A stretch of 35,087 nt of DNA from the IMG/VR virus record IMGVR_UViG_3300038701_001938, positions 1 to 35,087 of that record. The stretch is one strand, 5' to 3'. This DNA is from a virus. Numbering within the stretch: the stretch's first letter is position 1; every line of letters begins with the position of its first letter. The position numbers and the translations under genes are program-made. The notes under the pieces were generated by a model that worked only from the letters and a program-made list of their open reading frames with translations, did not search any database and was not told where the DNA came from. Positions 2,077 to 15,614 of this stretch are shown here, in pieces.

Positions 2077-2210
2077 TGCGCCACACCGTCGAAACCCAAA
2101 AGCGCGGCTGGCACCTATGGGTTGCCTTGGCGCTACTTATGGGGTTGGCGTGGTGCCAATCTGAAACGCCGCCGGAACAGCCCGCATATTTCAGCGAGGG
2201 AAGCCCATGA
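2073..2210 (+). CDS. Small membrane or exported peptide (45 aa)
   Basis: A short reading frame fills the gap between holin and endolysin. It starts ATGATG (2073 or 2076) overlapping the holin stop, and its stop overlaps the amidase start. After a basic N-terminus (RHTVETQKRG) there is one hydrophobic segment (LWVALALLMGLAWC), then a polar tail. The cysteine follows LAW, so it is not a standard lipobox; it could be a signal anchor or an atypical lipoprotein. Tight coupling at both ends argues that it is translated. It may be an accessory lysis factor or holin regulator, by position only. Confidence 0.6.
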   Translation: MMRHTVETQKRGWHLWVALALLMGLAWCQSETPPEQPAYFSEGSP

Positions 2211-2728: not shown

Positions 2729-2841
2729 TGTGCGTTCTTTCTTTCTTCGCGGGCATGCTGGTTGCCGTCGTGGTGGCCGTCGTCGTGATCTGGCTGATCA
2801 CGAAGGCGATGTATAACGACCCGCCGGGGCCGAGGCTTTGA
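2728..2841 (+). CDS. Single-TM small protein (37 aa)
   Basis: ATG overlaps the amidase stop (TGATG). The peptide is almost wholly one membrane helix (FFAGMLVAVVVAVVVIWLIT) with a short polar tail. The stop overlaps the TTG start of the spanin gene. It could be a second holin, an antiholin or another lysis accessory; the sequence alone does not decide. A longer frame reaches upstream to 2614 inside the amidase gene, but that would be a large overlap with no ribosome-binding advantage. Confidence 0.62.
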   Translation: MCVLSFFAGMLVAVVVAVVVIWLITKAMYNDPPGPRL

Positions 2842-3164
2842 CCCGCTACGCCCTCATAGCCGCGCTGGTGGCCGCTCTGGGCCTGTCTGGGGCGCTGATA
2901 TGGACCATGCGGACCAATGCCGCCCTAGAGGCCGAGAACGCCTCACTGAGCCGCTCTAAGGCCGCTCTCGAGGCATCACGCGATCAGGCCAAGGAGGCGC
3001 GCCGTGTGGAAGCGGCACGGGCCGAGCGGGCGCGACGTGATGCGGAACGTGCCGACGCGACGATAGAGCAAATCCTGACTTCTGATTTTGGGGAATGTGC
3101 TGATGAGGAAATTGATCCCGATCTTGGCGAGCTTATCAATGGGCGGCTCCTGCCTGCCGACTGA
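2838..3164 (+). CDS. Rz-like inner-membrane spanin (108 aa)
   Basis: Start is TTG at 2838, overlapping the previous stop; no ATG is available near the beginning of the membrane segment. Residues 4-22 form one N-terminal membrane helix (LIAALVAALGLSGALIW). Residues 28-80 are a long Ala/Glu/Arg-rich coiled coil, the standard i-spanin layout. The protein would sit in the inner membrane with its coiled coil in the periplasm and pair with the outer-membrane lipoprotein encoded in another frame from 3103, bridging and fusing the membranes at the last step of lysis. Confidence 0.78.
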   Translation: MTRYALIAALVAALGLSGALIWTMRTNAALEAENASLSRSKAALEASRDQAKEARRVEAARAERARRDAERADATIEQILTSDFGECADEEIDPDLGELINGRLLPAD

Positions 3165-3336
3165 ATACGTCAACGTGCTGCCGGATATTCCCGAGGAAAC
3201 GCTGACCCCGTGTCCGATCAGCGACCGGCAGGTTGAGACATACCGCGAGCTGGCCGTTCTGGCGACGGAACATCTTGAAAGCGCGCGCTGCAATGCGGGT
3301 AAGGTCGAAGCGGTGGCAGAGGTATACGCTAGCTAA
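3103..3336 (+). CDS. Rz1-like outer-membrane spanin lipoprotein (77 aa)
   Basis: It starts at ATG 3103 inside the Rz-like gene in another frame, overlapping it by 62 bases, the classic Rz/Rz1 nesting. A GGGGA element lies just upstream. The N-terminus (MRKLIPILASLSMGGSC) is a short signal peptide with a cysteine at residue 17. The GGSC box is a weak match to a lipobox, so lipidation is likely rather than certain. The mature part has a PxxPxE-like stretch and two further cysteines. It is the last gene of the rightward operon, ending nine bases before the convergent stop at 3346. Confidence 0.72.
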   Translation: MRKLIPILASLSMGGSCLPTEYVNVLPDIPEETLTPCPISDRQVETYRELAVLATEHLESARCNAGKVEAVAEVYAS

Positions 3337-3345
3337 TAGCAGGCT

Positions 3346-3894
3346 TCACGCTTCCCCCTCGTCTGTGTCAGGAATGAGGGCGAGAATGTGATATTCGATC
3401 CATTCGGCTGTAATCCCGCCGGGTTCATAGTGCGCGTATTTCGCAGCTATCGAGGCCGCCTCCCTCAGCGCCTCTTCCCTGATCCGTGCATCGCGTTTGG
3501 CGAGGGCATCGGTGCTGCCTCGGGCGCGGATGGCGGCGGTCACGTCCATCGCGCCGTCCCGTTTACCAAAGTAGCGCTCTGGGACAGCAACATCGTAGGC
3601 TCTGTTCGCGTAGGTTTCAGAAAGCCGCATCGCCACCTCAGCACACGCCTCCCTCTCCTCAGCCACGGCGGCGTCGATCTGAGATTGCACGAGGTCGGTG
3701 CGGGTGTTCCATGCGGCGACTGCTGTTGTGGCGTCAACGCCATAATCACCTTCTTCGCCGTTTATCCGTGCACTGCATCCATGACACAGCACAAAGGGGT
3801 GGTGCCTGTGAGTGGCTTGCCTGTGAAGGTGGTAAAAGAAGACTTTCGCGCTCCCGCAAAATGGGCAGGGCAGTAGTTCCGGTGCATCACCCAT
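3346..3894 (-). CDS. Lar-like zinc-ribbon protein (182 aa)
   Basis: The N-terminal ~65 residues match the Lar restriction-alleviation pattern: ELLPCPFCGSAKV, then a second pair VLCHGC, then AVAAWNTR. Four cysteines form a zinc ribbon. Lar-family proteins can reduce host type I restriction, but many members are uncharacterised, so the function here is inferred. The C-terminal two thirds is helical, Ala/Glu/Arg-rich and lacks a known domain. It is the last gene of the leftward block and overlaps the upstream gene by eight bases. Its composition (few GATC, no CTCGAG) differs from most of the genome. Confidence 0.72.
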   Translation of the reverse strand: MGDAPELLPCPFCGSAKVFFYHLHRQATHRHHPFVLCHGCSARINGEEGDYGVDATTAVAAWNTRTDLVQSQIDAAVAEEREACAEVAMRLSETYANRAYDVAVPERYFGKRDGAMDVTAAIRARGSTDALAKRDARIREEALREAASIAAKYAHYEPGGITAEWIEYHILALIPDTDEGEA

Positions 3895-4147
3895 CGTCTT
3901 TCTCCTGTTCTGCTAGGGCGGCACGGGCGGCATCGACACGATCCATCTGGTGATGCGAATAGATCGGTTCTCCAACATCCTCGACGGCCTCATAGTATTC
4001 CCTCAACCGCGCGACCTCGGCCTCCAGTTCCTCGATGCGGTCGGCCATACGAAGGATCAGGGTCTCAGCGTTCATCGTCCCGAAACTCACCTTCGGCAGT
4101 AGATCGCTATCCTTTGCCCGGCGGGCTGTTTTCACCAGATCATCCAT
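3887..4147 (-). CDS. Hypothetical coiled-coil protein (86 aa)
   Basis: Start chosen at the ATG at 4147, behind a GGAGAAGAG ribosome-binding site; a GTG one codon upstream is also possible. The middle has a heptad-like stretch (ADRIEELEAEVARLREYY). No membrane segment or metal motif. The start overlaps the previous stop by one base. The coiled coil resembles the tail of the next gene upstream (RIEELEAKVARLLKGEE), suggesting that the two share a module or interact. Confidence 0.68.
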   Translation of the reverse strand: MDDLVKTARRAKDSDLLPKVSFGTMNAETLILRMADRIEELEAEVARLREYYEAVEDVGEPIYSHHQMDRVDAARAALAEQEKDDG

Positions 4148-4347
4148 CACTCTTCTCCTTTCAGAAGTCGCGCGACCTTGGCTTCCAGTTCCTCGATGCG
4201 GCGAAGCAACTCCTCCTCTGGTGCCGTAGGGGGTAGCGTTGCAGGGGGCTGGGGATCAAACGGGGTGAACGGGGTGGCCGGGGTTCTGCACCGACAGGGC
4301 ATTCCCGGAACACCGCCACCGCAGAAAGGGCACGCAATATACGACAT
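4147..4347 (-). CDS. Zinc-ribbon and coiled-coil small protein (66 aa)
   Basis: The N-terminus has a compact cysteine cluster (IACPFCGGGVPGMPCRCR), a likely zinc ribbon. A Pro/Thr-rich linker follows, and the end is a coiled coil (RIEELEAKVARLLKGEE). Start at ATG 4347 with AGGAGA upstream; a GTG lies directly before it. A single-metal adapter that binds nucleic acid or protein is plausible, but no function can be assigned. Confidence 0.65.
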   Translation of the reverse strand: MSYIACPFCGGGVPGMPCRCRTPATPFTPFDPQPPATLPPTAPEEELLRRIEELEAKVARLLKGEE

Positions 4348-4365
4348 CACTCTTCTCCTGTTCTG

Positions 4366-4617
4366 TCACTCAACATAGTGGCGGCGGGTTAGTTCGTCGA
4401 AGGCGGCGAGGGCTTCAACAAGAGATGTGTCAGCGTCATCATGGATCGTCCCGTGTGCTGATACTGCCAACTCCTTTGCCGCCTCGATCACCTTGGCGTC
4501 GGCAAGGATGCGGGCTGAAAGCCTGTCTATAAGCCAATTGGCGCGGTCTATTTCGTCATCCGATGGTTTTGTCCCAATTCTAAAGCCATCACTTTGCTCA
4601 ATCAGTTTGTCAGTCAT
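4366..4617 (-). CDS. Hypothetical protein (83 aa)
   Basis: Small acidic, helical protein starting MTDKLIEQSDGF. No cysteines, no membrane segment and no motif recognised. The ATG overlaps the end of the ERF gene by eight bases, so it is coupled to it and may accompany recombination. Composition is less GATC-rich than the ERF gene, grouping it with the three genes downstream as a possible later addition. Confidence 0.66.
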   Translation of the reverse strand: MTDKLIEQSDGFRIGTKPSDDEIDRANWLIDRLSARILADAKVIEAAKELAVSAHGTIHDDADTSLVEALAAFDELTRRHYVE

Positions 4618-5365
4618 GATCGGCCGCGCTCCTCTTGAGGCTCTCGTGATGGCCCTCGTCGAGGAGCCAGCCGCGTTCGAGGTTGGTCCGATCTTTGAAC
4701 CATTTTTGATAGGCGTCGGTTCCGTCGATCGCCGCGCGCTGGGCGTCCTCGAGGAGCTGCGTCCACTTCTTTTCGATCGACCCGCTCGAGGCGCGACCCA
4801 TGTTGCCGTCGTCGTCCTCTCCGACGGTCACGATATTGAACGCAGCGCAGAGCGTGTATCGCTGGCCATACTTCCCGGCGGATCCCGCGCCTTGCGTGGC
4901 GTTCTTCGAGCCCGTCGTATCGATGCTCAGCGGCATCGGGCCGAACCGCTCCTCGTGGCCGCCGACATGGCTGACAATGCACGTTACCAGCACCCGGCCC
5001 TGCTCGCCTTCTTTGAAGTCGAAGCCGTAGGTCAGCCCCTCCTCCTCGACCAGCGGCCGCACGATCTGATCTATCGCCTCATAATGGGCGTAGCGGGATT
5101 GCACCTGACCGGCCTTGTTGGTGATGCGGCCGTCTTTCTGGATCCTCGGCATCTTCGCTCGAGCGGCGTGCATGGCCTTTTGGTATTCCGACCGGGCTTG
5201 CCGGTCGATCATGCGCTCCTGCATCCCGAGGATGGCTTCCATTTTCGCGGGGTCGACATCGGGATCCTTGGCCAGATCCAGCATGCCGTTGAACATTTGC
5301 GACAGGGACAAGCCGCTGCTTTCCTCGTCGCGCTTGGCGATTGCGGTTGCGGTTTCTTTTTCCAT
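4610..5365 (-). CDS. ERF-family single-strand annealing protein (251 aa)
   Basis: ERF-superfamily recombinase, which anneals complementary single strands and in P22-type phages helps circularise terminally redundant DNA. The signature runs from MPRIQKDGRI (about residues 72-81) through YAHYEAIDQIVRPLV (92-106). It continues to GSAGKYGQRYTLCAAF (161-176), closing with EDDD (183-186), the usual ERF ending. Residues 1-60 form a helical N-terminal extension. A Gly-rich, acidic C-terminal part follows. The start has AAAGGA upstream. It lies 99 bases downstream of the exonuclease gene, forming the usual exonuclease/annealase pair. Confidence 0.92.
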   Translation of the reverse strand: MEKETATAIAKRDEESSGLSLSQMFNGMLDLAKDPDVDPAKMEAILGMQERMIDRQARSEYQKAMHAARAKMPRIQKDGRITNKAGQVQSRYAHYEAIDQIVRPLVEEEGLTYGFDFKEGEQGRVLVTCIVSHVGGHEERFGPMPLSIDTTGSKNATQGAGSAGKYGQRYTLCAAFNIVTVGEDDDGNMGRASSGSIEKKWTQLLEDAQRAAIDGTDAYQKWFKDRTNLERGWLLDEGHHESLKRSAADHD

Positions 5366-5416
5366 TTACTAGGTTCCTTTCATGAGTTCGCTCTCTCCGA
5401 GCGGGTTCGGTGCATA

Positions 5417-5457
5417 GAGGCCCGGTGCAAAACGCCAAACGGTGAGCGCCGGGCCTC
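5417..5457 (-). other. Hairpin between exonuclease and ERF genes
   Basis: Perfect 9-bp arms, GAGGCCCGG at 5417-5425 and CCGGGCCTC at 5449-5457, with a 23-base loop. It lies in the 99-base gap between the two recombination genes. No T-run follows on the minus strand, so it looks more like an mRNA processing or stability element than a terminator. Nothing else is seen in the gap except the ERF ribosome-binding site. Confidence 0.6.
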
Positions 5458-5464
5458 GTCTATT

Positions 5465-6667
5465 CTAGCGCGGATCGTCCACGCTATCGAGCCAGAACGG
5501 CGAATAATCATCATCTTCGAGGCGGCCCACCAGATCGCGCGGGAACCACGGCTCGCCCTCGGTGCCGTAGATCTCGCAGCACTCGGCGTAGAGCCGCAGG
5601 CAGGACCGGACCTCGAGCTCGGCTTTGCGGCCGATGGCCGAGATTGATGTCGTTTGAACGGTCGCCTCGGCGCCGATCGATTGCTCCTCGATCCCCGGCG
5701 CGGCCGCGAAATACATCACCTGCCGGCCGCGCACGTCGGGGATCCCTGACCGGCGCACGAACAGAAACCAGTTGTTCCAGATCTTCGGGGTCTGCCACGC
5801 GGCCACAATCTGCCGCACGTTCTCCTCGAGATCAGTTGTCTTGCGCGGGCGGCCTGCCGGCTTCTCGACCTTCTCGCCTTTCATGATCGGCTCGGCGTGC
5901 CGGAGTTTCAGGTCGGGCATTGCGGAGATCCCCATAAGGTAGAACCAGCCGGTCCGGTAATATCCGTTAAAGCGGAACGTGTCCGCGATCGCGCGGTTCG
6001 CCGGCTTGCCGGATGCTTTCAGATCCCACGTTTTCAAGTGAGTGATCCAGTCGCGGCCGAGGTAGTCCGGCCGGGCCTTGCACTTTATCCCGGTGTCGGG
6101 GTCCGTCCACAGGATCGAAACCTCGGCCATGCCGCCGCTGATCAGATCCGCGAGCTCCGGGTTCATGCGGATCCGCGCGGCGTCGCGCTGGATCTCGTCC
6201 CATTGCTTGCGCCCGATCCATGTCAGATCCGCGCACGCCTTCTCCCATTCATCGCGGGCAGCGTGCCACGTCTGCGGGCCGCCGATCGCCTCGACCCGCC
6301 GGGCGCGATCGAGCACTGTCTCGCCGGCCTTGGTCTGGGCCTCGCCCATGTTTTTCAGCCAGATCTTATAGTCGGTGTCTTTGAGGAGTGATCCCTCGGG
6401 CATGTCGTCGACATCCATTTCCCGAATGAACAGATCCTCGAACACGTCGGGCTCGAGCCGGGCGCAATGGTAGGCGCGGCCAAGTTTCATCGCGTCGGTT
6501 TCTTCGCGCTCCTCGCGCTGGGGGTTCATCCAGCTATCGGCCCAGAACGAGCTCGGCCCTTCCATCAGCTTTGTCAGGTCTCCGGATGAAACCCGGCGCT
6601 GCGCGAGGTATTCGGCAAACGAAAGGTCGATATAGATCCCGTCGGGCAGTTCGGTGCGGTCGGTCAT
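5465..6667 (-). CDS. RecE-like PD-(D/E)XK exonuclease (DUF3799 type, 400 aa)
   Basis: Predicted 5'-3' double-strand exonuclease that supplies single strands to the ERF protein. Family features are KLGRAYHCARLEP (residues 61-73, the conserved histidine), E182 in GMAEVSILW, D201 in KARPDYL, and the DLK triad at 215-217. It is followed by a helical FRFNGYYRTG segment where RecE has its conserved aromatic helix. An LKTW lies just before DLK, but spacing to the following helix favours D215/K217 as the metal and catalytic pair. A C-terminal ~130 residues unlike RecE (GRPRKTTD and beyond) is extra. The start overlaps the preceding gene by four bases. Confidence 0.85.
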   Translation of the reverse strand: MTDRTELPDGIYIDLSFAEYLAQRRVSSGDLTKLMEGPSSFWADSWMNPQREEREETDAMKLGRAYHCARLEPDVFEDLFIREMDVDDMPEGSLLKDTDYKIWLKNMGEAQTKAGETVLDRARRVEAIGGPQTWHAARDEWEKACADLTWIGRKQWDEIQRDAARIRMNPELADLISGGMAEVSILWTDPDTGIKCKARPDYLGRDWITHLKTWDLKASGKPANRAIADTFRFNGYYRTGWFYLMGISAMPDLKLRHAEPIMKGEKVEKPAGRPRKTTDLEENVRQIVAAWQTPKIWNNWFLFVRRSGIPDVRGRQVMYFAAAPGIEEQSIGAEATVQTTSISAIGRKAELEVRSCLRLYAECCEIYGTEGEPWFPRDLVGRLEDDDYSPFWLDSVDDPR

Positions 6668-6900
6668 TGTTCAATCTCCTGTTTCAGTTCTTCGCGGGTC
6701 TTGCGAAGGTCGGACCAACGCCCTTCGATCAGCATGTCGACAAGCGTGGATCCTCGGGTCTGTCGCCATGCGGCGCGAGCGATCCGGCAATCAGTGCTGC
6801 AAAACTCCTGATCTGCGCGGCTGGGGGTGAACCGGCCGCGTGAACCGGCCGGCCCTTTCGTGCACTTGTGCCATTTGCAGGTCTGCTCTGTCTTACGCAC
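6664..6900 (-). CDS. Cys-rich zinc-finger-like protein (78 aa)
   Basis: The start is GTG at 6900, overlapping the previous stop. Cysteines and a histidine sit as TCKWHKC near residue 8 and FCSTDCR near residue 33, a probable treble-clef or ribbon zinc site of the type seen in small phage and plasmid proteins ending in RAAWRQTRG. The rest is charged and helical. Coupling to the exonuclease gene suggests a role in the same recombination unit; function unknown. Confidence 0.68.
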   Translation of the reverse strand: MRKTEQTCKWHKCTKGPAGSRGRFTPSRADQEFCSTDCRIARAAWRQTRGSTLVDMLIEGRWSDLRKTREELKQEIEQ

Positions 6901-7207
6901 TTTGCGGCTCCTCGCTCTGGATCTCGTCGTCGCTCTCCTGATCTGCCAGCGCGTCGCGGATGGCGGGCAGGAGCTTCTCGCGGTATTCGTCGCGCAGCAG
7001 GCCGATGGTCGACAGGATCTCCGCGTCGGTGTCGTTCATCCGAAAGGCCGTGACCTCCGTTTGCACGGTGTCGAAATCATACTGCGCGCGACGCTCCAAG
7101 CTCCAAAAGAACAGGCTGACGCAGTTCCCGTTGTCTTTCATGGCGGGGCTCGCCTTGAAGTGCAGGCGGTTGTAGGAAACGGGATGGATGTTAAGTTGTG
7201 TGGACAT
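6893..7207 (-). CDS. Hypothetical protein (104 aa)
   Basis: Starts MSTQLNIHPVSYNRLHFK, with a GAGGAAAA ribosome-binding site. The sequence is a mixed N-terminal half (KDNGNCVSLFFWS) and an acidic helical C-terminal half (DEYREKLLPAIRDALAD). No domain recognised. The N-terminal strand-rich segment ahead of the helix could be a small single domain. It is the first gene after the 52-base gap that follows the LPD29 gene. Confidence 0.66.
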   Translation of the reverse strand: MSTQLNIHPVSYNRLHFKASPAMKDNGNCVSLFFWSLERRAQYDFDTVQTEVTAFRMNDTDAEILSTIGLLRDEYREKLLPAIRDALADQESDDEIQSEEPQSA

Positions 7208-7233
7208 TGGGTTTTCCTCTCTTTGGGGGTGGT

Positions 7234-7252
7234 GCGGGGCTGGGCGCCCCGC
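7234..7252 (-). other. Intergenic hairpin
   Basis: Perfect 7-bp arms GCGGGGC (7234-7240) and GCCCCGC (7246-7252), loop of five. It sits between the LPD29 gene and the gene downstream, with no T-run, so it is more likely a processing or attenuation structure than a full terminator. Confidence 0.55.
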
Positions 7253-7259
7253 GTGGTGA

Positions 7260-7916
7260 TCAGGCGGCCTCGATCGCCGGCATGGCGTCGGGCATCATCC
7301 GCCGGGCGGCCATTTCGTAAAGGTAGCAGTCGGCCATGTGCGGCGCCCGAACCGGCGCGGCGCTCTTGAACCGGCTGGCGTGGTGGAATTCGGTGACTTC
7401 GCCGGCCCGGATCGCGTCTGCGAGCTCGTCGTTCCACTTTGCGGCGTAAGCCTTCAAGACCCGATCTTTTGCCGGCTCGCTCAGGCTCCGGTTGGTAAAG
7501 ACGAAATCCGCCCCGAACGAAACCGGGACCGCGCCATTGTAGTCGGGGCCGGCGGCGGCGGCTGGAACGACGCCATTTCCCTCGGTGCCCCGCGTCTCGC
7601 GAAAGGCGGCCTCGCCGTTGGGGTAGAGCCATGCGCCGACGTTGTATTTCATGTCGCACATGCCGTCGAAACCGGATCCGGCGAAGGGGGCGATATAGGC
7701 GTCGACCAGCTTGGCGGTCGGTCCGTCGGTCCAGCTGACATCGATCGAGCTGCCGCCGGCGTAGATCTTCGACCGAACGCTGAATTTGGTGGTCGGAAAC
7801 TTGCGCTTCAAAAGGGCGCGGATCGCCTTCGCGGTGTCGGTGGTGCCGACGTGCGCGCTGCGCGCCGGGCGGGCTTTCCACTCGGCAAGGGCAGCTTTGT
7901 AAACGGCGTTGGTCAT
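7260..7916 (-). CDS. LPD29-domain protein (218 aa)
   Basis: Start chosen at ATG 7916, behind GGAGAT; the frame is open further up but only through the promoter. Residues about 25-90 match large polyvalent protein-associated domain 29: AIRALLKRKFPTTKFSVRSK, then GGSSIDVSWTDGPT, then GFDGMCDM. LPD domains were described as parts of large polyvalent proteins of phages and conjugative elements; their biochemistry is mostly unknown. Here the domain is in an early-type protein. The C-terminal part (SAAPVRAPHMADCYLYEMA) has no match. It is the first gene behind the promoter at 7935-7978, so it should be strongly expressed early. Confidence 0.75.
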   Translation of the reverse strand: MTNAVYKAALAEWKARPARSAHVGTTDTAKAIRALLKRKFPTTKFSVRSKIYAGGSSIDVSWTDGPTAKLVDAYIAPFAGSGFDGMCDMKYNVGAWLYPNGEAAFRETRGTEGNGVVPAAAAGPDYNGAVPVSFGADFVFTNRSLSEPAKDRVLKAYAAKWNDELADAIRAGEVTEFHHASRFKSAAPVRAPHMADCYLYEMAARRMMPDAMPAIEAA

Positions 7917-7934
7917 GTGTCGATCTCCTTTTCG

Positions 7935-7978
7935 GGTTGGTGCAATAGTTATAATAATCATTACCGGGCCGAGGTCAA
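7935..7978 (-). promoter_or_regulatory. Early promoter copy A
   Basis: Read on the minus strand: -35 TTGACC (7978-7973), 16-base spacer, -10 TATTAT (7956-7951), then a conserved TATTGCACCAACC leader before the LPD29 gene. One of three 44-bp blocks; 30 of 44 positions are identical in all three by my alignment. Unique to this copy, the -35 lies in the loop of a 7-bp hairpin (arms 7964-7970 and 7981-7987). Confidence 0.82.
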
Positions 7979-7992
7979 TAGGCCCGGCGGGA

Positions 7993-8331
7993 TTATTTTC
8001 GCCGGACTGCGAGCTCGGCGCCGCAAGCGATCATCCGGTCGACGAGCTGCTGCGTCGACAGGCTGGCCAGCGTTTCAATTTCGCAGGCAACGGGCGCCGC
8101 GACATCCTCGGCCTGCGGCATGCGCGGCCGCAGCTCGGCCTCGCTTTCGGCGATCTCGGTGTCTCCCCACTCCATCGCGGCGATGCGGTCGCGCAGGGGC
8201 TCGAGGAGCTTCCAGACGGCCGCATCATCGATCCGCATGCTGGCGGCGCTTTTCTGGATGTGGCCGAGCTGGTCGCGGGCGCGCTGAACGCGCGGCCCGT
8301 TGATGCGGTTGAATTCGTCGATCTTTGTCAT
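7993..8331 (-). CDS. Hypothetical early protein (112 aa)
   Basis: Start at ATG 8331, behind GGAGATCGACAC, an initiation region nearly identical to that of the LPD29 gene and the next gene upstream. The protein is helical and charged (MTKIDEFNRINGPRVQRA at the start), with an acidic middle (ESEAELRPRMP) and a C-terminus LVDRMIACGAELAV. No domain recognised. The stop lies just before promoter A, so the unit probably ends or is partly re-initiated there. Confidence 0.68.
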   Translation of the reverse strand: MTKIDEFNRINGPRVQRARDQLGHIQKSAASMRIDDAAVWKLLEPLRDRIAAMEWGDTEIAESEAELRPRMPQAEDVAAPVACEIETLASLSTQQLVDRMIACGAELAVRRK

Positions 8332-8353
8332 GTGTCGATCTCCTCTCTGGGGG

Positions 8354-8605
8354 TTAGTAAAGGTCGAGGGTGTCGTTCTCGACGTGGTAGGCGAGCCGCG
8401 CTTCTGCTGCCTCGCGTGCAACCTCGCTCTCGCGGCGCTCGAGGATCTCACGCTGTTCAGACAGAAGGCGCCACTTCACGTTGAGGATGCGTTCCTTGCT
8501 CTCGGCGGCGAGGCTGTCAGGGTTGAGGGCGTCGAGCTCCTTCTCGAGGTAGGTGATGTCGTCTTGCAGGACGCGGATGTTCTCGCGGATTTGGTCTATG
8601 TGCAT
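8354..8605 (-). CDS. Hypothetical coiled-coil early protein (83 aa)
   Basis: Almost wholly helical, with heptad-like repeats (IRVLQDDITYLEKELDAL and EQREILERRESEVARE). ATG at 8605 follows GGAGATCGAC. It is a likely dimeric coiled-coil protein with no enzymatic motif. It belongs to the unit driven by promoter B. Confidence 0.68.
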   Translation of the reverse strand: MHIDQIRENIRVLQDDITYLEKELDALNPDSLAAESKERILNVKWRLLSEQREILERRESEVAREAAEARLAYHVENDTLDLY

Positions 8606-8639
8606 GTCGATCTCCTTTCGGGCTGGTGGGCTTGGTGAC

Positions 8640-8658
8640 GCGGCCGGATCCCGGCCGC
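8640..8658 (-). other. Intergenic hairpin
   Basis: Perfect 8-bp arms GCGGCCGG (8640-8647) and CCGGCCGC (8651-8658) around a three-base loop, in the 63-base gap between two early genes. There is no T-run on the minus strand. It may be an RNA processing or differential-expression element. Confidence 0.55.
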
Positions 8659-8668
8659 GCTGCGAAGC

Positions 8669-9085
8669 TCACGCGGGGCTAAAGGTGATGTTGTTGTTCG
8701 GCGCCTTCTCGATCCGGTAAGCCTGATCTTTGATCAGGATCCGATCGCCGATCATTGCGCCCGCCAGATATTCCTTGGCATGCGCCTCGGCGGTGATCGA
8801 GACGCTCTTGCCGTAGGCCAGCGGGGTTCCGTCGTCGTCGAAGCAGATCCCGAAGAATTTGAACATCATGCCGTGCCGAATGGTGGGGAAGGGAACCGCA
8901 ATGCCCGGCGCGGCCTGACCCAAGTGCCGGCCGCCGTTGTCTGCCATCAGGGTCAGCTCCTCGGGGTTGTCGCTGATCAAGATCGCGTAGGCGGGCCAAT
9001 CAATCATGGTCATGTGCTGGCCCATGTCGGTGACGGTGCAGCCCCGGAAATCCATGCCGGCAAAATTGTGGAAAGCGTTGTTCAT
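8669..9085 (-). CDS. Hypothetical early protein (138 aa)
   Basis: Start at ATG 9085 behind GGAGAGAG; the longer frame would begin in the promoter. N-terminus MNNAFHNFAGMDFRGC, then mixed strand and helix with DNGGRHLGQAAPG and an MMFKFFGICFDDDGTP segment. The C-terminal part (IGDRILIKDQAYRIEKAP) looks like a small beta domain. No family recognised. It is the first gene behind promoter B, a place where phages often keep host-takeover genes; that role is inference. Confidence 0.7.
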   Translation of the reverse strand: MNNAFHNFAGMDFRGCTVTDMGQHMTMIDWPAYAILISDNPEELTLMADNGGRHLGQAAPGIAVPFPTIRHGMMFKFFGICFDDDGTPLAYGKSVSITAEAHAKEYLAGAMIGDRILIKDQAYRIEKAPNNNITFSPA

Positions 9086-9097
9086 GTCTCTCTCCTT

Positions 9098-9141
9098 GGT
9101 TGGTGCAATATACATAGTAATCATTATTGCAACGGGGTCAA
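9098..9141 (-). promoter_or_regulatory. Early promoter copy B
   Basis: Minus strand: -35 TTGACC (9141-9136), 16-base spacer, -10 TACTAT (9119-9114), then the TATTGCACCAACC leader. A GCAATA-N14-TATTGC dyad covers the -10, a possible repressor site. The TGA stop of the preceding gene (9140-9138) lies within the -35 element. Confidence 0.85.
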
Positions 9142-9332
9142 GAGGGGTCGAGAATTTTTTTCAGCCGGTCCAGCTCGCGGCCGTAGCGCATCAGCTCTGC
9201 CTTGGCGTCGCGCATGGCTTGGACCTGTGCGAAATTCGGGTTTTCGTTCCGGGCGAAATTCTCGATCACGGCGATCGAGATCGCGGTCGCTTCTTCGAAG
9301 GTCGGGGTCAGGTCGATGGTGTCGATGGTCAT
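9138..9332 (-). CDS. Hypothetical early protein (64 aa)
   Basis: Short helical protein (MTIDTIDLTPTFEEATAI at the start) with a charged C-terminal helix ending ELDRLKKILDPS. No domain recognised. The start overlaps the end of the gene upstream and its stop is embedded in promoter B. Confidence 0.62.
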   Translation of the reverse strand: MTIDTIDLTPTFEEATAISIAVIENFARNENPNFAQVQAMRDAKAELMRYGRELDRLKKILDPS

Positions 9333-9562
9333 TGCTTGTTTCCTTTCGTCAGGGTTTCAATTTTGCGGCGGATGGTGCGGGCCTCGCGCATGTATCGGTC
9401 GCGGTGCGCGGCATCGATCGCGATGTCGCTGGACACCCACGAGGGCCGGGCGCCGGTGCCGTATTGGGCGAGGGTGCGGTCGATCCTGTTTTGCGCGCGC
9501 TCGGCGCCGGCCTCGAGGATCTCGAGCTCCTGTCGCAGGTGGGTCAATTCGATCTGGTCCAT
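9329..9562 (-). CDS. Hypothetical coiled-coil early protein (77 aa)
   Basis: Starts MDQIELTHLRQELEILEA, a coiled-coil helix, and ends in a basic helix (YMREARTIRRKIETLT). The organisation is like that of the gene at 8354-8605, so the two may be distant copies of one coiled-coil type. ATG preceded by GGAGAT. Function unknown. Confidence 0.64.
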   Translation of the reverse strand: MDQIELTHLRQELEILEAGAERAQNRIDRTLAQYGTGARPSWVSSDIAIDAAHRDRYMREARTIRRKIETLTKGNKQ

Positions 9563-9574
9563 TTTGGGATCTCC

Positions 9575-9811
9575 TCAGTATTGGCGGAAGTAGAGCAGGG
9601 GTGCGGGGGCGCCGCATTTTTGCGTCGTGCTCATCGGGCGGCGTTCGCCGGGCGCCATGTCGGCGAACCGCTGGGCCTCGATGGGGGTCATGGGCAGGCC
9701 GAGGCGATCGGCGTCGGTGGCCTCGCAGGCCCGGCCGTTAAGCTCGTCCCATCCGATGAACCAGAAGCCCGGTGCGCCTGCGGCGCCGATTTCGATGTTG
9801 AAGCGTGCCAT
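9575..9811 (-). CDS. Hypothetical early protein (78 aa)
   Basis: MARFNIEIGAAGAPGFWFIG at the start suggests a beta-rich N-terminus, followed by ELNGRACEATDADRLGLP and a proline-rich end. No family recognised. It has an AAGGAGG-like ribosome-binding site. Second gene behind promoter C. Confidence 0.62.
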   Translation of the reverse strand: MARFNIEIGAAGAPGFWFIGWDELNGRACEATDADRLGLPMTPIEAQRFADMAPGERRPMSTTQKCGAPAPLLYFRQY

Positions 9812-9835
9812 TAGTGCTTTCCTCCTTGGATTTGT

Positions 9836-10000
9836 TTAGGTGTAGCTGCCGGCGGCGGCCTGATCGGCGGCCCGCTGGGCAAAGAAGGCATCGGTCGCGG
9901 TCATGGTTTCCTGTGCGGCCTCACAGGCGGCGCCCCGTGCGCCGTAGAATTGGTGGGCGGCGAAGGCGGCGGCAAAAGCGAAAGCGAAGAACAGTTCCAT
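9836..10000 (-). CDS. Small hydrophobic-headed early protein (54 aa)
   Basis: First gene behind promoter C, start ATG 10000 behind GAGGAGAG. The N-terminus is a Phe/Ala-rich hydrophobic stretch (MELFFAFAFAAAFAAHQFYG), possibly one membrane segment or signal anchor, followed by an Ala/Gln-rich polar tail. Promoter-proximal early position plus a membrane-inserting head could fit superinfection exclusion or host-membrane targeting; this is speculation. Confidence 0.6.
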   Translation of the reverse strand: MELFFAFAFAAAFAAHQFYGARGAACEAAQETMTATDAFFAQRAADQAAAGSYT

Positions 10001-10015
10001 TTCGTGTCTCTCCTC

Positions 10016-10059
10016 GGTTGGTGCAGTAGTTATAGTAATCACTATTGCTTGCAGGTCAA
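10016..10059 (-). promoter_or_regulatory. Early promoter copy C
   Basis: Minus strand: -35 TTGACC (10059-10054), 16-base spacer, -10 TACTAT (10037-10032), then the conserved TGCACCAACC leader. An imperfect dyad GCAATAGTGAT / ACTACTGC covers the -10. It lies in the divergent gap between the leftward early genes and the rightward gene at 10121. I see no equally good rightward promoter in this gap. Confidence 0.85.
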
Positions 10060-10120
10060 CTAGGAAAGTGAAAAAAAATGCGCTATGGTCTCGAACATTC
10101 AGCACCGGAAAGGAAAAATC

Positions 10121-10486
10121 GTGCCAGATCATTCACCTACAGACGACGAAATCCTCGAGCTCGCCTATCAGATCCGAGACGAGCGCGGCTTGCCGCTGGT
10201 TGAGGCGATGGATATTGCGGCGACAAAGCTGGCCAACGCCGGGGCCGAGATCGATTGCACTTTCGATCTGCGGATCGAGCTCAAGCCTCGCGTGGCCAAG
10301 TTCTTTCGCGAGAGTTTCGCCGGGCACCCGGATCTCTCGGTCGAGGAGCGGCTTGCCAAGTTCCTTGAAATGCAGCTGAACCGGCTGCGCGGCGAGGCGC
10401 TGGCCAGAACGCGGCAGGACGCGGACATCACCGACGGCAAGGCGGTCACGCTGCGGCGTTCCGTGTTTCTTGAAAAGACGGGATGA
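10121..10486 (+). CDS. Hypothetical protein, first rightward gene (121 aa)
   Basis: Start chosen at GTG 10121 because a GGAAAGGA ribosome-binding site lies directly upstream; an in-frame ATG at 10085 has no such site. The N-terminal half is helical (DEILELAYQIRDERGLPLVE) and could contain a helix-turn-helix, but no standard motif is clear. The C-terminal half is charged (VEERLAKFLEMQLNRLRGE). A position divergent from the early block is typical of a regulator; no function can be assigned. Confidence 0.66.
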   Translation: MPDHSPTDDEILELAYQIRDERGLPLVEAMDIAATKLANAGAEIDCTFDLRIELKPRVAKFFRESFAGHPDLSVEERLAKFLEMQLNRLRGEALARTRQDADITDGKAVTLRRSVFLEKTG

Positions 10487-10515
10487 CACGGCGTCCTGCG
10501 CGGTGTAGAAAAGGC

Positions 10516-10548
10516 GGGCGGGGAGTGTTGGAAGCACTCGACCCGCCC
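10516..10548 (-). terminator. Strong hairpin, possible minus-strand terminator
   Basis: Arms GGGCGGG+GAGTG (10516-10527) and CACTC+GA+CCCGCCC (10535-10548), a 12-bp stem with a two-base bulge and a seven-base loop. On the minus strand it is followed by GCC then TTTTCT, a proper terminator tail; on the plus strand there is no T-run. It could block antisense transcripts from running into the early promoter region, or act as an RNA structure in the rightward leader. Confidence 0.55.
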
Positions 10549-10576
10549 TCACCATAACCGATAAAGGGGATCGGCC

Positions 10577-10840
10577 ATGACGACCGACAATCTACCCGCT
10601 CCACCGGGGTGCATCAAGCCCTCAGACGAGTTTCTCGACGAGATATTCGAGGAGGTCGCGCGCTGCGCTGAGGCATTGCAGATGGACGGATCTCAAGTGG
10701 AGCTCCTGACCGAGATCACGGCCGTCTTGACCCCGTGGCTTGATGATGACGCGGGCGAGGCGGCCACATTGGCGGCGTGGCTGATGATCCATCTCAAGCG
10801 GCACGGGTGGACGTTCGCGAAAGGGGGGGGCAATGGCTGA
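10577..10840 (+). CDS. Hypothetical acidic protein (87 aa)
   Basis: Start ATG behind AAGGGGATC. The protein is acidic and helical (EFLDEIFEEVARCAEALQ; LLTEITAVLTPWLDDDAG) and ends in a Gly-rich tail encoded by a G-run. The stop overlaps the DUF1376 start by eight bases, so it is coupled to that gene. No family recognised. Confidence 0.68.
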   Translation: MTTDNLPAPPGCIKPSDEFLDEIFEEVARCAEALQMDGSQVELLTEITAVLTPWLDDDAGEAATLAAWLMIHLKRHGWTFAKGGGNG

Positions 10841-11441
10841 GCTTCCCTATCTTCCGATCTACATCGACGATCTGCACATGGATACGCGCCACCTGTCGAA
10901 TGAGCAGTTCGGGCTCTACGTCAAGTTGCTGATGGCCGCGTGGCGGGATCACGATAATTCGCTGCCGAATGACCCGGCCATGATCTGCCGGCTCGTCGGG
11001 GAAACCGGGCACCGAAAGGGCAAAATCATGGAGCTCGTCGAACAGTTCTTTCACGTGGACGAAAACCGCTGGCGGCAAAAAAGGCTGGACAAAACTCGGA
11101 GAAAAGTCTCGAGAAACTACCGACAAAAGGTGGCAGCTTCTCGGAAGGCTTCTGAGGCTAGACGGTTGAAAAATAACAAAACACGTTCACCGGCCGGAAA
11201 ATCGGCCGGAGGTCCAAACCAAAACCAAACCTTCTATAAAGAAGGGGGCGCGCGTAAAAACGCGCGGGGGGATTTGTGTATTTTGGAAGATGGCTCAGCC
11301 GTGGGCGCCGCAACCGTCAGCGCCGTCAAGAACGGCGAGCCGTGGGTTCGCGCAACCCTTTCATCGCACAAGGCGAGGATGATGCTTAGGGCCGAGCTCG
11401 TCACAGCCGAGGAGCTGAAAGCGGCAGGGATAGAGGTCTAG
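10833..11441 (+). CDS. DUF1376 family protein (202 aa)
   Basis: The N-terminal ~90 residues fit DUF1376 (YdaU-like): LPYLPIYIDDLHMDTRHLS, then FGLYVKLLMAAWRDHDNSLP, then VEQFFHVDENRW. In phages and prophages this family usually sits with replication genes, and a DNA-binding role in replication initiation is suspected, not shown. The middle (residues ~90-150) is basic, Lys/Asn-rich and encoded by AT-richer DNA holding three hairpins. The C-terminal ~50 residues (PWVRATLSSHKARMMLRAEL) form a separate small region. It is the only replication-linked candidate in the genome. Confidence 0.8.
   Translation: MAELPYLPIYIDDLHMDTRHLSNEQFGLYVKLLMAAWRDHDNSLPNDPAMICRLVGETGHRKGKIMELVEQFFHVDENRWRQKRLDKTRRKVSRNYRQKVAASRKASEARRLKNNKTRSPAGKSAGGPNQNQTFYKEGGARKNARGDLCILEDGSAVGAATVSAVKNGEPWVRATLSSHKARMMLRAELVTAEELKAAGIEV
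11190..11266 (+). repeat. Three tandem perfect stem-loops inside the DUF1376 gene
   Basis: Within 77 bases: CCGGCCG/CGGCCGG (11190-11209, loop GAAAAT), CCTTCT/AGAAGG (11230-11245, loop ATAA) and CGCGCGT/ACGCGCG (11249-11266, loop AAAA). All loops are A-rich and all lie in the linker-coding part. No T-run follows. They could be an RNA element or an inserted non-coding sequence that stayed in frame. Confidence 0.7.
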
Positions 11442-11445
11442 AGAT

Positions 11446-11907
11446 ATGGCACCACCAGTCCGAATTCTCGCACTCTCTGCAAGCGAGATCTCCGAGCGGG
11501 CTCAGGAGTATTTCGAAAGCAGGATCGGAACGCGCAAGATCTTCCCCAAAAATGGCGAGCCATACGAGGAGGAGTATGTGAAGCCGCCAACCTTCACAGG
11601 GTTAGCACGAGCTTTCGATATCTCGAGGCACACGCTATGGCGGGCTTTGCATAGAAGGGATGATTTGCCGGAGGATCTGCACCTCGCCCTAGCGCGCGCC
11701 TGCGATGAGCTGGCCGAAATGGTCGAGGAGGCGCTCTATAACCGCGAGACGCACAACGGCGCCCGGTTCTCTCTCGAGGTCAATCACCGGCACGGCCGAG
11801 AGGACGAGGGATCAGGCGAGGCAGGGGGGTTCATGCAGACGATCATGCCGCCCGGCGGATCCCACGAACCGATTGCAATTCCCAAGTGGGGAGACGACGA
11901 TGAATGA
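11446..11907 (+). CDS. Terminase small subunit (153 aa)
   Basis: Recognises phage DNA for packaging together with the large subunit encoded downstream. Residues ~49-68 form a helix-turn-helix (TFTGLARAFDISRHTLWRAL). A later GARFSLEVNHRHGRED segment matches the conserved end of the terminase small-subunit family whose members have ALKN-GW-like motifs at this point. The acidic Pro/Gly-rich C-terminus may contact the large subunit. The N-terminal helix probably drives ring assembly. The context, one to three small genes ahead of the large subunit, supports the call. Confidence 0.82.
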   Translation: MAPPVRILALSASEISERAQEYFESRIGTRKIFPKNGEPYEEEYVKPPTFTGLARAFDISRHTLWRALHRRDDLPEDLHLALARACDELAEMVEEALYNRETHNGARFSLEVNHRHGREDEGSGEAGGFMQTIMPPGGSHEPIAIPKWGDDDE

Positions 11908-12226
11908 ACAGCACCGAAACCAAACAGGAGATCTATCCATGAAACGCCCACGCTATTTTTCCCGCATCGACGGCAAGCTGCATTACGACGGCTTTCCGCT
12001 CTCGACCGACACGCCGCCGGCCCGGCTTCTCGCCGCGATCGAAAGCGCCTTGGGTGCGGCGCATCATTACCAGATTGAGGCACAGCGATACCGGGAAACT
12101 CTGCAGGACGTGCGGCGGCCGATCATAGATTGGCGCTCGAGGGGTCAGGCCGGTTCGCTTCTTGTCGCGGCGTTCGGCGCCGGGATGGCGGTCTCGGCGC
12201 TCATTCGGATCGTGGTGGGGGTCTAA
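11900..12226 (+). CDS. Hypothetical membrane protein (108 aa)
   Basis: The ATG at 11900 overlaps the terminase small-subunit stop and has GGGAG upstream. An ATG at 11939 with AGGAG eight bases before it is an equally good start and would give 95 residues. The C-terminus holds one membrane helix (SLLVAAFGAGMAVSALIRIVV). The soluble part is helical (LLAAIESALGAAHHYQIEAQ). Placed between the terminase subunits but not part of the motor by sequence; function unknown. Confidence 0.64.
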   Translation: MNEQHRNQTGDLSMKRPRYFSRIDGKLHYDGFPLSTDTPPARLLAAIESALGAAHHYQIEAQRYRETLQDVRRPIIDWRSRGQAGSLLVAAFGAGMAVSALIRIVVGV

Positions 12227-12227
12227 A

Positions 12228-12428
12228 ATGGAAAACCTCAGCACCGGCGACGACTGGAAGGGCGAGCACCTGATCCGAAGCGCGCGCAGCGGCAAGCCAA
12301 AGCCCGGCTCGGGGCTATGCCGTGAGTGCAGCAAGAAGCTATCTGACGACAACGTGACGGGCTACTGCAAGGATCACCGGAACCTTGGGCGGCGATACGG
12401 CGGGCGAGGAGGGGCTTTCAAGGTATGA
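12228..12428 (+). CDS. Zinc-finger-like small protein (66 aa)
   Basis: Start ATG 12228, two bases after the previous stop. It has a CxxC...CxxH pattern (LCRECSKKL then GYCKDHR), a likely zinc site, and a basic Gly/Arg-rich tail (GRRYGGRGGAF) suited to nucleic acid. The stop overlaps the terminase large-subunit start by four bases. A packaging accessory or HNH-like nuclease partner is possible, but no active site is seen. Confidence 0.68.
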   Translation: MENLSTGDDWKGEHLIRSARSGKPKPGSGLCRECSKKLSDDNVTGYCKDHRNLGRRYGGRGGAFKV

Positions 12429-14050
12429 CGGCGGCAGAGGCCCATTGGGACTATTCGAGCTCTCCGACGGCGTGGGATTTCCGGGGCAACCGGGATTTCG
12501 CGTCGTTCATTATCGGGCCTGTCGGATCCGGTAAGTCGGTCCCGCTTCTGCAGCGGATCCTCGAGCACGGCCGGGAGCAGATGGCCTCGCCCGACGGGGT
12601 GCGGAGATCCCGGTTCGCCGTGGTCCGGAACACCATGCCAGAGCTTCGATCGACGACGGCCGTGACATACGACCAGATCTATCCGTCGGACCATTTCGGC
12701 GATATCGTATGGCGCTCGCCGGCCACGCACATGATGCGCGTCAACGACTGCGAGATCGAGATCAACCTGATCGCGCTCGACAAGCCGAAGGATGTCAAGA
12801 AGCTCCTCTCGCTCGAGCTGAGCGGCGCGGCCTTCAACGAAATGCGCGAGGTTCCTCGATCCGTGGTCACGCGAATGACCGAGCGGGTCGGCCGGTATGG
12901 GCTGAACGAGCGGCCCTCGACGTGGCGCGGGATCTGGGGCGACAGCAACCCGCCCGATACCGATCACTGGCTCTACGACTGGCACCACCAGAACACGCCG
13001 GCGGGCTATTCGTTCTACACCCAGCCGCCGGGCGTCCTCGAGGTCGAGCCCTATCGCGATGGCGTGGTCGTGATCGACGAGAATTTCCCGCAATGGCAGG
13101 GCGTCAAGATGCGCTCGGCTGTCGTGCGGATCTGGTGGAAGGGCAAGGTCCAGCCGGTCGAGTGTCCTATCGAGATTATCCACGCGGCCGAACGGCAATG
13201 GATCGTCAACCCGTTCATGGAGAACCTGCCGGCGCTCTCGCGTGTCTCGGCCGGGGATAACCCGCTCGGCGGCCGGAGCTACTACGGGCAGGCTCTCGCC
13301 GGCAAGACGCTGCCTGAGATCCGAAGCTACCTGCAGGGCGTCTATACGTTCGTGCTCGAGGGGCGCCGCGTGGTGCCGCAATACAATCCGCAGGTTCACG
13401 GCGTCGATCGGCTGCCGGTGATGGAGGATCAGCCGCTTCTCGTCGGGATGGACATCGGCGGCGGCACGCTGCAGCCCTCGGCGCTGATCTTCCAGAAGCA
13501 CCCGCGCGGCGTCTATCTCTGCCACCGCGAGGTTGTGTGCTTCGATATGGGCGTGCAGCGGTTCGGCGAGCTCCTCGCGGAAACGATTGTCAAACACTAC
13601 CCCGGCCACGCGGAGAAGGGGCTGGTTTCGACCATGTGGGGCGACCCGGCCGGCGAGAAGCGCGACGAGATATTCGAGACGGCGAGCTTCGATTACCTGC
13701 GATCGACGCACGGCTTCAAGGTTTTCGCGGCGCCGTCACAGGATCCGAAGATGCGGGTCGCGGCGCTGTCTGGCCCATGCGAGCGGATGATCGATGGCAA
13801 GCCCGGCATGCTGGTCAGCAAGCCCGGCTGCCCGATGCTACACAAGGGGCTGCAGGGTGGGTGGCATTACAAGCGGGTCGAGGTCAGCGGCGAGGATCGG
13901 TTCCAAGACAAGCCGAACAAGAACGAATATTCGCACGTTTGCGACGCGGCCGGATACGGCCTGCTTGGCGCCGGCGAGTTCTTGAAGCTGGGCGGCCGCA
14001 CCCAGCACGACGAGACGCCGATGGTTGCCGATGGTGACTTTGATCCTTGA
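12425..14050 (+). CDS. Terminase large subunit (541 aa)
   Basis: ATP-driven DNA packaging motor and headful or site-specific nuclease. Walker A is GPVGSGKS at residues 31-38. The Walker B-type strand is LELSGAAFNEM, with E139 as catalytic glutamate and asparagine 138 in the usual aspartate place, as in related podophage terminases. The C-terminal RNase-H-like nuclease has D343 in GMDIGG, D407 in GDPAGEK and D507 in HVCDAAGYG, a complete acidic triad. Length is normal for the family. The start overlaps the previous gene. There is no intein or break. Confidence 0.95.
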   Translation: MTAAEAHWDYSSSPTAWDFRGNRDFASFIIGPVGSGKSVPLLQRILEHGREQMASPDGVRRSRFAVVRNTMPELRSTTAVTYDQIYPSDHFGDIVWRSPATHMMRVNDCEIEINLIALDKPKDVKKLLSLELSGAAFNEMREVPRSVVTRMTERVGRYGLNERPSTWRGIWGDSNPPDTDHWLYDWHHQNTPAGYSFYTQPPGVLEVEPYRDGVVVIDENFPQWQGVKMRSAVVRIWWKGKVQPVECPIEIIHAAERQWIVNPFMENLPALSRVSAGDNPLGGRSYYGQALAGKTLPEIRSYLQGVYTFVLEGRRVVPQYNPQVHGVDRLPVMEDQPLLVGMDIGGGTLQPSALIFQKHPRGVYLCHREVVCFDMGVQRFGELLAETIVKHYPGHAEKGLVSTMWGDPAGEKRDEIFETASFDYLRSTHGFKVFAAPSQDPKMRVAALSGPCERMIDGKPGMLVSKPGCPMLHKGLQGGWHYKRVEVSGEDRFQDKPNKNEYSHVCDAAGYGLLGAGEFLKLGGRTQHDETPMVADGDFDP

Positions 14051-14114
14051 TGTTGACCGCCTGCCGGTATACGGTTTTCGCCACGCACCGAACGAAACAA
14101 GGGGTTTAGCTGAA

Positions 14115-14309
14115 ATGCCCAAGAACGACGTTGACCGCATCAAGGTAGTCATGCCCAAGTGGCGCGACCACTTAAAAGATGTGGAAAAACAAAGGCTTGC
14201 GATCATTGAAGCCCGCCTAGAGCGCAAAGAAAAGACGATAATGGAGCTTGCCGCCGAACGGCGGGCGCTCATGCGTCGGTGCATCATGCGATCAAGGAGA
14301 GCAAAATGA
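14115..14309 (+). CDS. Small basic coiled-coil protein (64 aa)
   Basis: Start at ATG 14115 behind AAGGGG; the frame is open upstream but overlaps the terminase gene. Basic, helical (KQRLAIIEARLERKEKTIME) and ending in an Arg cluster. Codon use is AT-richer and GATC-poor compared with flanking genes, which suggests a recently inserted accessory gene. No function recognised. The 64 bases before it hold a TTGACC but no matching -10 at a normal spacing. Confidence 0.6.
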   Translation: MPKNDVDRIKVVMPKWRDHLKDVEKQRLAIIEARLERKEKTIMELAAERRALMRRCIMRSRRAK

Positions 14310-14635
14310 TTGACCCAATGGAAGAAACCACCCGCCGCGCAGATCTGGAAAAGTGCCGGATTATCGATGTCAAATTCGCCAGTTATTGCGCGATGGTTTA
14401 CGGGGTTGCTCCAGACAAGCTGCCACAGACCCAGCTCCGCGAGGTTCGCAATGCGTTCTTTGCCGGCATGGTGCTTTATCAGGGCGATGTTCTGTTCAGC
14501 GGCGCGGGGGATCCGGATCTCGAGGAGGAGCGGGACGAAAAGATCTCCCGATACACTCAACGGATTGCTGACGAGCTCGAGGCATACGCCGAGGGCGAGC
14601 TGGCAAGATTGATGCCGACGGAGGGCACGGCATGA
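14306..14635 (+). CDS. Hypothetical protein (109 aa)
   Basis: Start at ATG 14306 behind AAGGAG, overlapping the previous stop. The N-terminal half is mixed (CRIIDVKFASYCAMVYG) and the C-terminal half acidic and helical (DEKISRYTQRIADELEAYAE). No family recognised. It lies in a run of small genes between terminase and portal. Confidence 0.67.
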   Translation: MIDPMEETTRRADLEKCRIIDVKFASYCAMVYGVAPDKLPQTQLREVRNAFFAGMVLYQGDVLFSGAGDPDLEEERDEKISRYTQRIADELEAYAEGELARLMPTEGTA

Positions 14636-14934
14636 CCGACGCGAGCCTGATATTCCCAGCGCGGGATCTGCCCAGCCGGACCCCGATTGCCGAGCGCCAG
14701 AAGCTATACAAGGCCGGGCAGGCCACATGGCCCGAACCGCTTCTCGGAACGACGTGCCGGGACTGCGTGTTTTTCGATCAGAGCTTCGACGTGATCGCCC
14801 CCAAAAGCGCAAGCAAGGGCTTTGGAAAGTGCCGGCGCGCGGCGCAAATGCAGGGCGGTCGATGGGGTGTCCGGATCGAGGCTCGTTTCATGTCGTGCGC
14901 GGAATTCGCAATGGAGGATCGCGAGGATGTCTGA
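14632..14934 (+). CDS. Four-cysteine protein (100 aa)
   Basis: The start overlaps the previous stop (ATGA). Cysteines occur in TTCRDCVFF, GKCRRA and MSCAEF, a spacing that could hold one zinc. The central GRWGVRIEARF has strand character. I recall similar four-Cys small proteins in phage accessory regions, without a known role. Nothing ties it to packaging apart from position. Confidence 0.66.
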   Translation: MTDASLIFPARDLPSRTPIAERQKLYKAGQATWPEPLLGTTCRDCVFFDQSFDVIAPKSASKGFGKCRRAAQMQGGRWGVRIEARFMSCAEFAMEDREDV

Positions 14935-15172
14935 CGGCTTTTCTATGATCGTCGGCAACGGGGCCGAAACCCGCCGGATGGCCGAGCAGAGCTTTCGCGA
15001 GGCGTCGGTCGAGCTGCCCGAGGGGTATAGCTCGGTGGGGCTGGCGATCGCCGCTGACAGCATGGCAGGAGCCAATGCTTCGTCCCGGCTTTTCATCACC
15101 GGGCCAGACGTGCCGGCGATGTTCTGGGATGGCTCCCAATGGGTGCGGGTGATCGACGATCTCGATGGCTAA
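14927..15172 (+). CDS. Hypothetical protein (81 aa)
   Basis: Start at ATG 14927, overlapping the previous stop by eight bases. The sequence has alternating strand-like parts (VGLAIAADSM; RLFITGPDVPAMFW) and an aromatic C-terminus (DGSQWVRVIDDL). No family recognised. The stop overlaps the nuclease start. Confidence 0.62.
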   Translation: MSDGFSMIVGNGAETRRMAEQSFREASVELPEGYSSVGLAIAADSMAGANASSRLFITGPDVPAMFWDGSQWVRVIDDLDG

Positions 15173-15614
15173 GCGGCGGCCGAAATACGAAACAGCTCGG
15201 GACCGTGCGCGAGAGCGTGCGGTTCTCGACGTTCTGGCCGAGAAGTGGATCTGCGAATACCGCGTCGCCGACGATTTCGCGAGCTATGATGCGATGCTTT
15301 TCCGCGATGGCGTTCTGCGCGGGCTGGTCGAGATCAAGTGCCGGGAAATGGCAATGGCCACCTATCCGACGCTGCATATCTCGAAAGCGAAGATCGACAA
15401 GCTGATCGCGACCTGCACGGGGCTCAACCTCAAACCCTTGCTTGTCGTCTCGCTATGGGATCGGATCCTCGGGCTCACGCTCGATCCCGATGGCTACCCG
15501 GTCGAGAACGGCGGCCGCACCGATCGCGGGGATCCCAAGGATCTCGAGCCAGTCTATGCAATTCCGTGGCCAGCGTTTAAGCTGGTCGCCACCAAAGGGG
15601 GGAAGGCGCCATGA
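15165..15614 (+). CDS. PD-(D/E)XK-type nuclease (149 aa)
   Basis: Small predicted endonuclease. The active-site pattern is D42 in ASYDAMLFRDG followed by E56-I-K58 in LVEIKCR, the standard PD-(D/E)XK spacing. A basic N-terminus (MAKRRPKYETARDRARER) could bind DNA, and a core strand LKPLLVVSLWDR follows. Similar small nucleases resolve branched DNA, and this one sits between terminase and portal, so trimming recombination intermediates before packaging is plausible. It may instead attack host DNA. The start overlaps the previous gene by eight bases. Confidence 0.75.
   Translation: MAKRRPKYETARDRARERAVLDVLAEKWICEYRVADDFASYDAMLFRDGVLRGLVEIKCREMAMATYPTLHISKAKIDKLIATCTGLNLKPLLVVSLWDRILGLTLDPDGYPVENGGRTDRGDPKDLEPVYAIPWPAFKLVATKGGKAP

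Follow-up and report, generated by a model that had tools for sequence, protein, structure and literature searches.

Three near-identical putative promoters were found within 2.1 kb of a single leftward operon in the window analyzed here (the whole stretch of phage DNA, 35,087 nt in length), and a conserved gene next to the first of them, gp10121, probably encodes a DNA-binding protein which controls all three. In the complete reading, early promoters recognized by the host sigma-70 factor were duplicated along one leftward operon and are repressed by gp10121, acting as a ribbon-helix-helix protein; we give this chain as a whole about an even chance of being correct. Gene control of this kind is ordinary for phages, and the new element is the candidate regulator at the junction.

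The window belongs to a marine bacteriophage, and the related phages probably infect Rhodobacteraceae. The nearest named relative was Dunaliella viridis virus SI2 (NC_023841), and one of the relatives recognized by its terminase was located in a Rhodobacteraceae MAG (L035). Relatives were sampled as 28 viral loci with a related terminase, after two loci with a related exonuclease. Matches to gene families included tail proteins, the major head protein, head-tail adaptor, terminase, endolysin, exonuclease VIII, a primosomal protein, and Lar. Neither an integrase nor a CI-like repressor was found among the scanned ORFs, which were part of all ORFs. Both ends of the contig (34022–35087 and 1–1112) lie within a gene of tail-fibre type that contains tandem repeats in frame, with 63-bp and 42-bp units (SETAAAASETAAAT); therefore, the assembly was probably interrupted within one such repeat, and a near-complete genome is likely.

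All three promoter blocks are encoded on the minus strand. P3 (10016..10059), located at the divergent junction, is the first of the leftward early promoters, and its transcript start is predicted inside CTGCACCAACC; P2 (9098..9141) and P1 (7935..7978) are internal and precede gene 8669–9085 and the LPD29-domain gene 7260–7916, respectively. The first-pass annotation had described three 44-nt blocks at these places, and an ungapped three-way alignment confirmed them, with 30 of 44 positions identical and a 16-bp spacer in each. Pairwise identity was at least 34/44 (77% or more). The −35 hexamer was TTGACC in all copies and the −10 hexamer was TATTAT in P1 and TACTAT in P2 and P3, so that P3 reads TTGACC-16-TACTAT; the hexamers and their spacing are of the sigma-70 type, with 9–10 of 12 consensus positions matched in P1–P3. 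The conserved stretch YTGCACCAACC follows the −10 element, and GCACCAACC closes all three blocks, with a Shine–Dalgarno sequence and then ATG downstream. An A/T tract, a possible UP-like element, is located 12–20 nt upstream of the P2 −35 hexamer (9153..9161, minus strand), and similar tracts were present upstream of P3 and P1. These blocks make up three of the five promoter-like sites on the minus strand within positions 1–18,000 of the window, and a simple composition model of the window gives a chance expectation for such triples of about 5e-10. No match to tRNA or an Rfam family was obtained. The earlier view of the blocks as promoters is well supported by where they lie, by how they are built, and by the homologous promoters of related phages, and we hold with high confidence that they are promoters at all; their activity is predicted from these sequence features.

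The first small gene under P3 (9836..10000, minus strand) encodes a 54-aa protein with an N-terminal hydrophobic stretch and without a family match. The gene directly under P2 (8669..9085, minus strand) encodes 138 aa, and the gene directly under P1 (7260..7916, minus strand) encodes an LPD29 domain protein (PF18847, E 1.9e-21), which is 48% identical to its orthologue in relative L005. The downstream part of the operon (4610..6667, minus strand; phrog_412) comprises genes of an exonuclease VIII-like protein (5465–6667) and an Erf-like annealing protein (4610–5365), the latter having orthologues with 72% identity in L005 and 68% in SI2. A Lar-type restriction alleviation protein is encoded at the far end of the operon (3346–3894, minus strand; PF14354, phrog_599). 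No terminator-like site was found on the minus strand between P3 and about 3.9 kb. The content of the operon (exonuclease VIII, Erf, Lar) suggests that P1–P3 act early. The regulon had been thought to be phage-wide, which was not borne out: all copies fall within 2.1 kb of a single leftward operon, and a scan of the 35-kb record allowing up to three mismatches did not reveal a fourth copy or any copy elsewhere. A near-identical ribosome-binding region is also found just 5' of three start codons (7918–7935, 8333–8350, 8605–8622; repeat families D2, D6, and D8), independent of the promoters.

P2 and P3 are the closest pair: they share 37/44 positions once the compared stretch is shifted to take in the ribosome-binding site, and their likeness extends into this site (56-nt repeat family D1). 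Such recent duplication, ribosome-binding site included, also suits duplicated constitutive promoters without any phage regulator, whose copies would offset weak readthrough into distal genes and whose likeness would reflect only recent duplication together with selection for strength. Phage sigma-70 promoters can act early with no regulator, and we regard this explanation as possible, although on balance we doubt it; the conservation of the transcript-start element and of the gene at the junction, both described below, speaks against it.

A junction promoter alignable with P3 was found in three relatives, SI2 (L001), L005, and L026; in SI2, it scored 26.8 bits versus 12.3 bits for the next site. 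L005 also contained a second promoter, found only with the profile of the window, ahead of the orthologue of the LPD29 gene served by P1. We failed to find a counterpart of P2 in the relatives. The junction and LPD29 promoters thus appear to be older, while P2 and gene 8669 look specific to the window. Each of the four foreign promoters matched the transcript-start element TGCAYCRAMC at 7–9 of 10 positions (P 0.0002–0.02 each), whereas the spacer diverged. This element lies outside the core −35 and −10 hexamers, and its retention between phages is not what purely constitutive promoters would lead one to expect. An A/T tract of 8–9 nt was present upstream of the −35 hexamer in five of the seven promoters; tracts of at least 8 nt occur in 0.7% of random 50-mers. 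In a more distant clade, the promoter was not alignable with confidence.

Looking for the 44-bp block in related phages, as had been suggested, thus yielded homologous promoters in SI2, L005, and L026; exact-pattern scans of IMG/VR with the conserved core returned no other contig. A search for repeated 44-mers in 14 relatives did not reveal a second near-identical promoter copy upstream of gp10121: the best repeats had 28–31 of 44 positions in common versus 27–30 in shuffled sequence, and most of them resemble coding sequence. These comparisons also bear on whether the blocks are something other than promoters, namely, binding sites of a host regulator or sites of recombination or replication. 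Repeats rich in A/T that precede recombination genes might function as an origin or as targets of recombination, and exchange would naturally take place at a cassette present in several copies. However, every copy precedes a Shine–Dalgarno sequence and ATG in the orientation and position of a promoter, and the homologues elsewhere keep the promoter layout rather than the repeat number; we consider a role of this kind very improbable.

The first-pass annotation had further proposed a shared dyad, GCARTA..TATTGC. It is real in P2, with perfect 7-bp arms (TGCAATA/TATTGCA), and imperfect in P3 (5/6), but its role as a shared operator is supported neither by P1 (about 3/6) nor by the homologous SI2 promoter, in which the dyad is not kept. 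A perfect dyad with 6-bp arms occurs in 8–10% of shuffled blocks, and this dyad alone is therefore not beyond chance. That dyads of single blocks are at about chance level agrees with constitutive promoters. All of P1–P3 as well as SI2 contain an inner near-palindrome of 14 nt (ATARTNATTAYTAT), one arm of which is the −10 hexamer; the P1 and P2 versions have mismatches. The joint score of this near-palindrome over the four promoters was reached by 0.2% of column shuffles (P 0.002), so that it appears better supported than the outer dyad once SI2 is included. The L005 and L026 promoters lack the inner dyad, which could thus have operator function in this sub-lineage alone or could in part follow simply from the −10 sequence. 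The heptamer CTATTGC was also considered as a half-site common to these phages and was rejected because it coincides with the likely −35 element in the distant clade.

Gene gp10121 (10121..10486, plus strand) encodes a protein of 121 aa with a GTG start codon; a helical hairpin is followed by residues 46–98, which resemble a ribbon-helix-helix domain. Conservation of the gene extends to about 20 related phages, and orthologues in 17 or more relatives had 34–71% identity (68% in SI2). In all 17 relatives in which the junction was read, the orthologue is oriented rightward with a leftward reading frame on its other side. The earlier remark that no clear regulator gene is seen can thus be improved upon, as 10121–10486, which that annotation had proposed for a gel shift, is conserved, divergent from the first promoter, and possibly encodes a ribbon-helix-helix protein. 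A single-sequence protein search with gp10121 found no relative, while a profile search did. No family match, to ribbon-helix-helix proteins or to others, was obtained in Pfam, PHROGs, NCBIfam, or PDB sequences, and the profile of the C-terminal half had no similarity to P22 Arc in hhalign. Since these sequence searches were all negative, gp10121 is described only as resembling ribbon-helix-helix proteins and is not filed as a member of the family. No gp10121 homologue was found in 295 genomes of the family of the L035 MAG; the MAG itself was unmatched too, and this result carries little weight.

The structural model of gp10121 consists of a helical hairpin (residues 8–39), an extended stretch (44–54), and two helices (56–65 and 74–98), and the C-terminal half folded alone gave the same elements. 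The models were poor (pLDDT of 69–70, pTM of 0.33–0.38). Foldseek alone gave no significant PDB match, and the viral library returned only an SI2-like orthologue. When Foldseek candidates were re-aligned to the C-terminal half, the six best aligned PDB entries were 5ceg (ParD), 5xe3 (its antitoxin chain), 2wvd (NikR), 7r5a (ParD2), 1par (Arc on its operator), and 3kxe (ParD), all of them ribbon-helix-helix proteins. Their Z values, obtained with a low-confidence model, were 3.6–4.2, below the level at which the tool is reliable, with rmsd of 2.8–3.9 and 44–61 residues aligned; for the full model, ParD chains were matched over the same residues. Singly these matches are weak; the uniformity of the top rows is what counts, and it points weakly but consistently to a ribbon-helix-helix fold of the C-terminal half. 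The presence at this junction of a conserved gene whose product may have a DNA-binding fold is a further point against the absence of any phage regulator. In the predicted strand, as expected for such a fold, conserved hydrophobic residues (F48, L/V50, I52) alternate with variable ones (47, 49, 51). The corresponding outward strand residues of Arc read operator bases. Variable contact residues and diverged promoters would fit a regulator with changed specificity. It is conceivable, although we think it less likely than not, that gp10121 founds a new family of ribbon-helix-helix-like regulators in marine phages, probably of Rhodobacteraceae, in which residues 47, 49, and 51 changed between phages along with the operator of the early promoters, and that the operator was copied with the promoter, thereby recruiting new genes to the regulon.

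Upstream of gp10121, a −10-like site GCGCTATGGT was found (10080–10089, plus strand), nearly conserved in SI2 (GCGCTATAGT) and without a good −35 element; it is possibly an activator-dependent rightward promoter. Activator-dependent promoters often have a −10 element without a good −35 element. The retention of this site (GCGCTATRGT) between the window and SI2 would suit gp10121 as an activator of early or late promoters instead of a repressor of early ones. In contrast, a good −35 element is a feature of the leftward promoters, and overlap with the −10 element, as seen for the inner dyad, is typical of repression; an activator therefore seems unlikely to us.

In the repressor reading, which we prefer, each cassette would consist of the A/T tract, TTGACC, a 16-bp spacer, TAYTAT, the conserved start TGCACCAACC, a short leader, and a Shine–Dalgarno sequence. 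Three copies would drive three successive gene blocks of the leftward early operon, which ends in recombination genes. P3 would be the long-standing promoter of the junction and P2 a recent copy of it, whereas P1 would be an internal copy of greater age, given its L005 counterpart before the same gene. After entry, the host RNA polymerase would start at P3, P2, and P1, yielding nested leftward transcripts, and copies placed within a long operon would keep distal genes strongly transcribed and all blocks under one control. Expression of the rightward operon would then supply the gp10121 protein, which would attach close to the −10 element, at the inner dyad ATARTNATTAYTAT, at flanking half-sites, or at both, and turn the early promoters off. 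Observed are the copies, their homologues, and the fact that gp10121 and the transcript-start element are conserved; we infer promoter activity and timing, the ribbon-helix-helix fold, DNA binding, and whether regulation is negative or positive.

Several known systems are comparable. The SAS/ESAS elements of Cluster K mycobacteriophages (a 13-bp element that occurs 11–19 times close to start codons and was suggested to act in translation) are likewise short conserved elements before several small phage genes, about half of them with an inverted repeat just upstream (PMC3203893), whereas the window has three copies, each laid out as a complete promoter. Cluster O mycobacteriophages (the Corndog group) resemble the window in having several sigma-70-type promoters in one long leftward region and a divergent pair at an AT-rich junction; they carry more than 30 dyads, mostly away from promoters, and the excerpted account does not describe their promoters as near-identical copies (PMC4351075), unlike the pairwise identity of 77% or more found here. 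P22 Arc and other ribbon-helix-helix repressors (1par) share with gp10121 the small size, the predicted strand-helix-helix, and a gene beside a promoter that it possibly controls. Unlike Arc, gp10121 has an additional N-terminal helical hairpin and a C-terminal tail, its binding is a prediction, and no sequence similarity was detected. SI2 has the same early operon layout, a homologous junction promoter, and the gp10121 orthologue, but in the 17.6-kb stretch scanned, only a single promoter copy and no LPD29 gene were found.

The window shows how a phage can place small genes that it has recently acquired under early control: a single cassette of promoter, leader, and ribosome-binding site is copied. 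For about 20 marine phages, uncultured or poorly studied, it also provides a concrete and testable candidate for an early regulator. Among the relatives, locus L008 (61–1, minus strand) contained a consensus-like promoter, the 17-bp spacer of which holds the inverted repeat GTTCCG-GGAT-CGGAAC.
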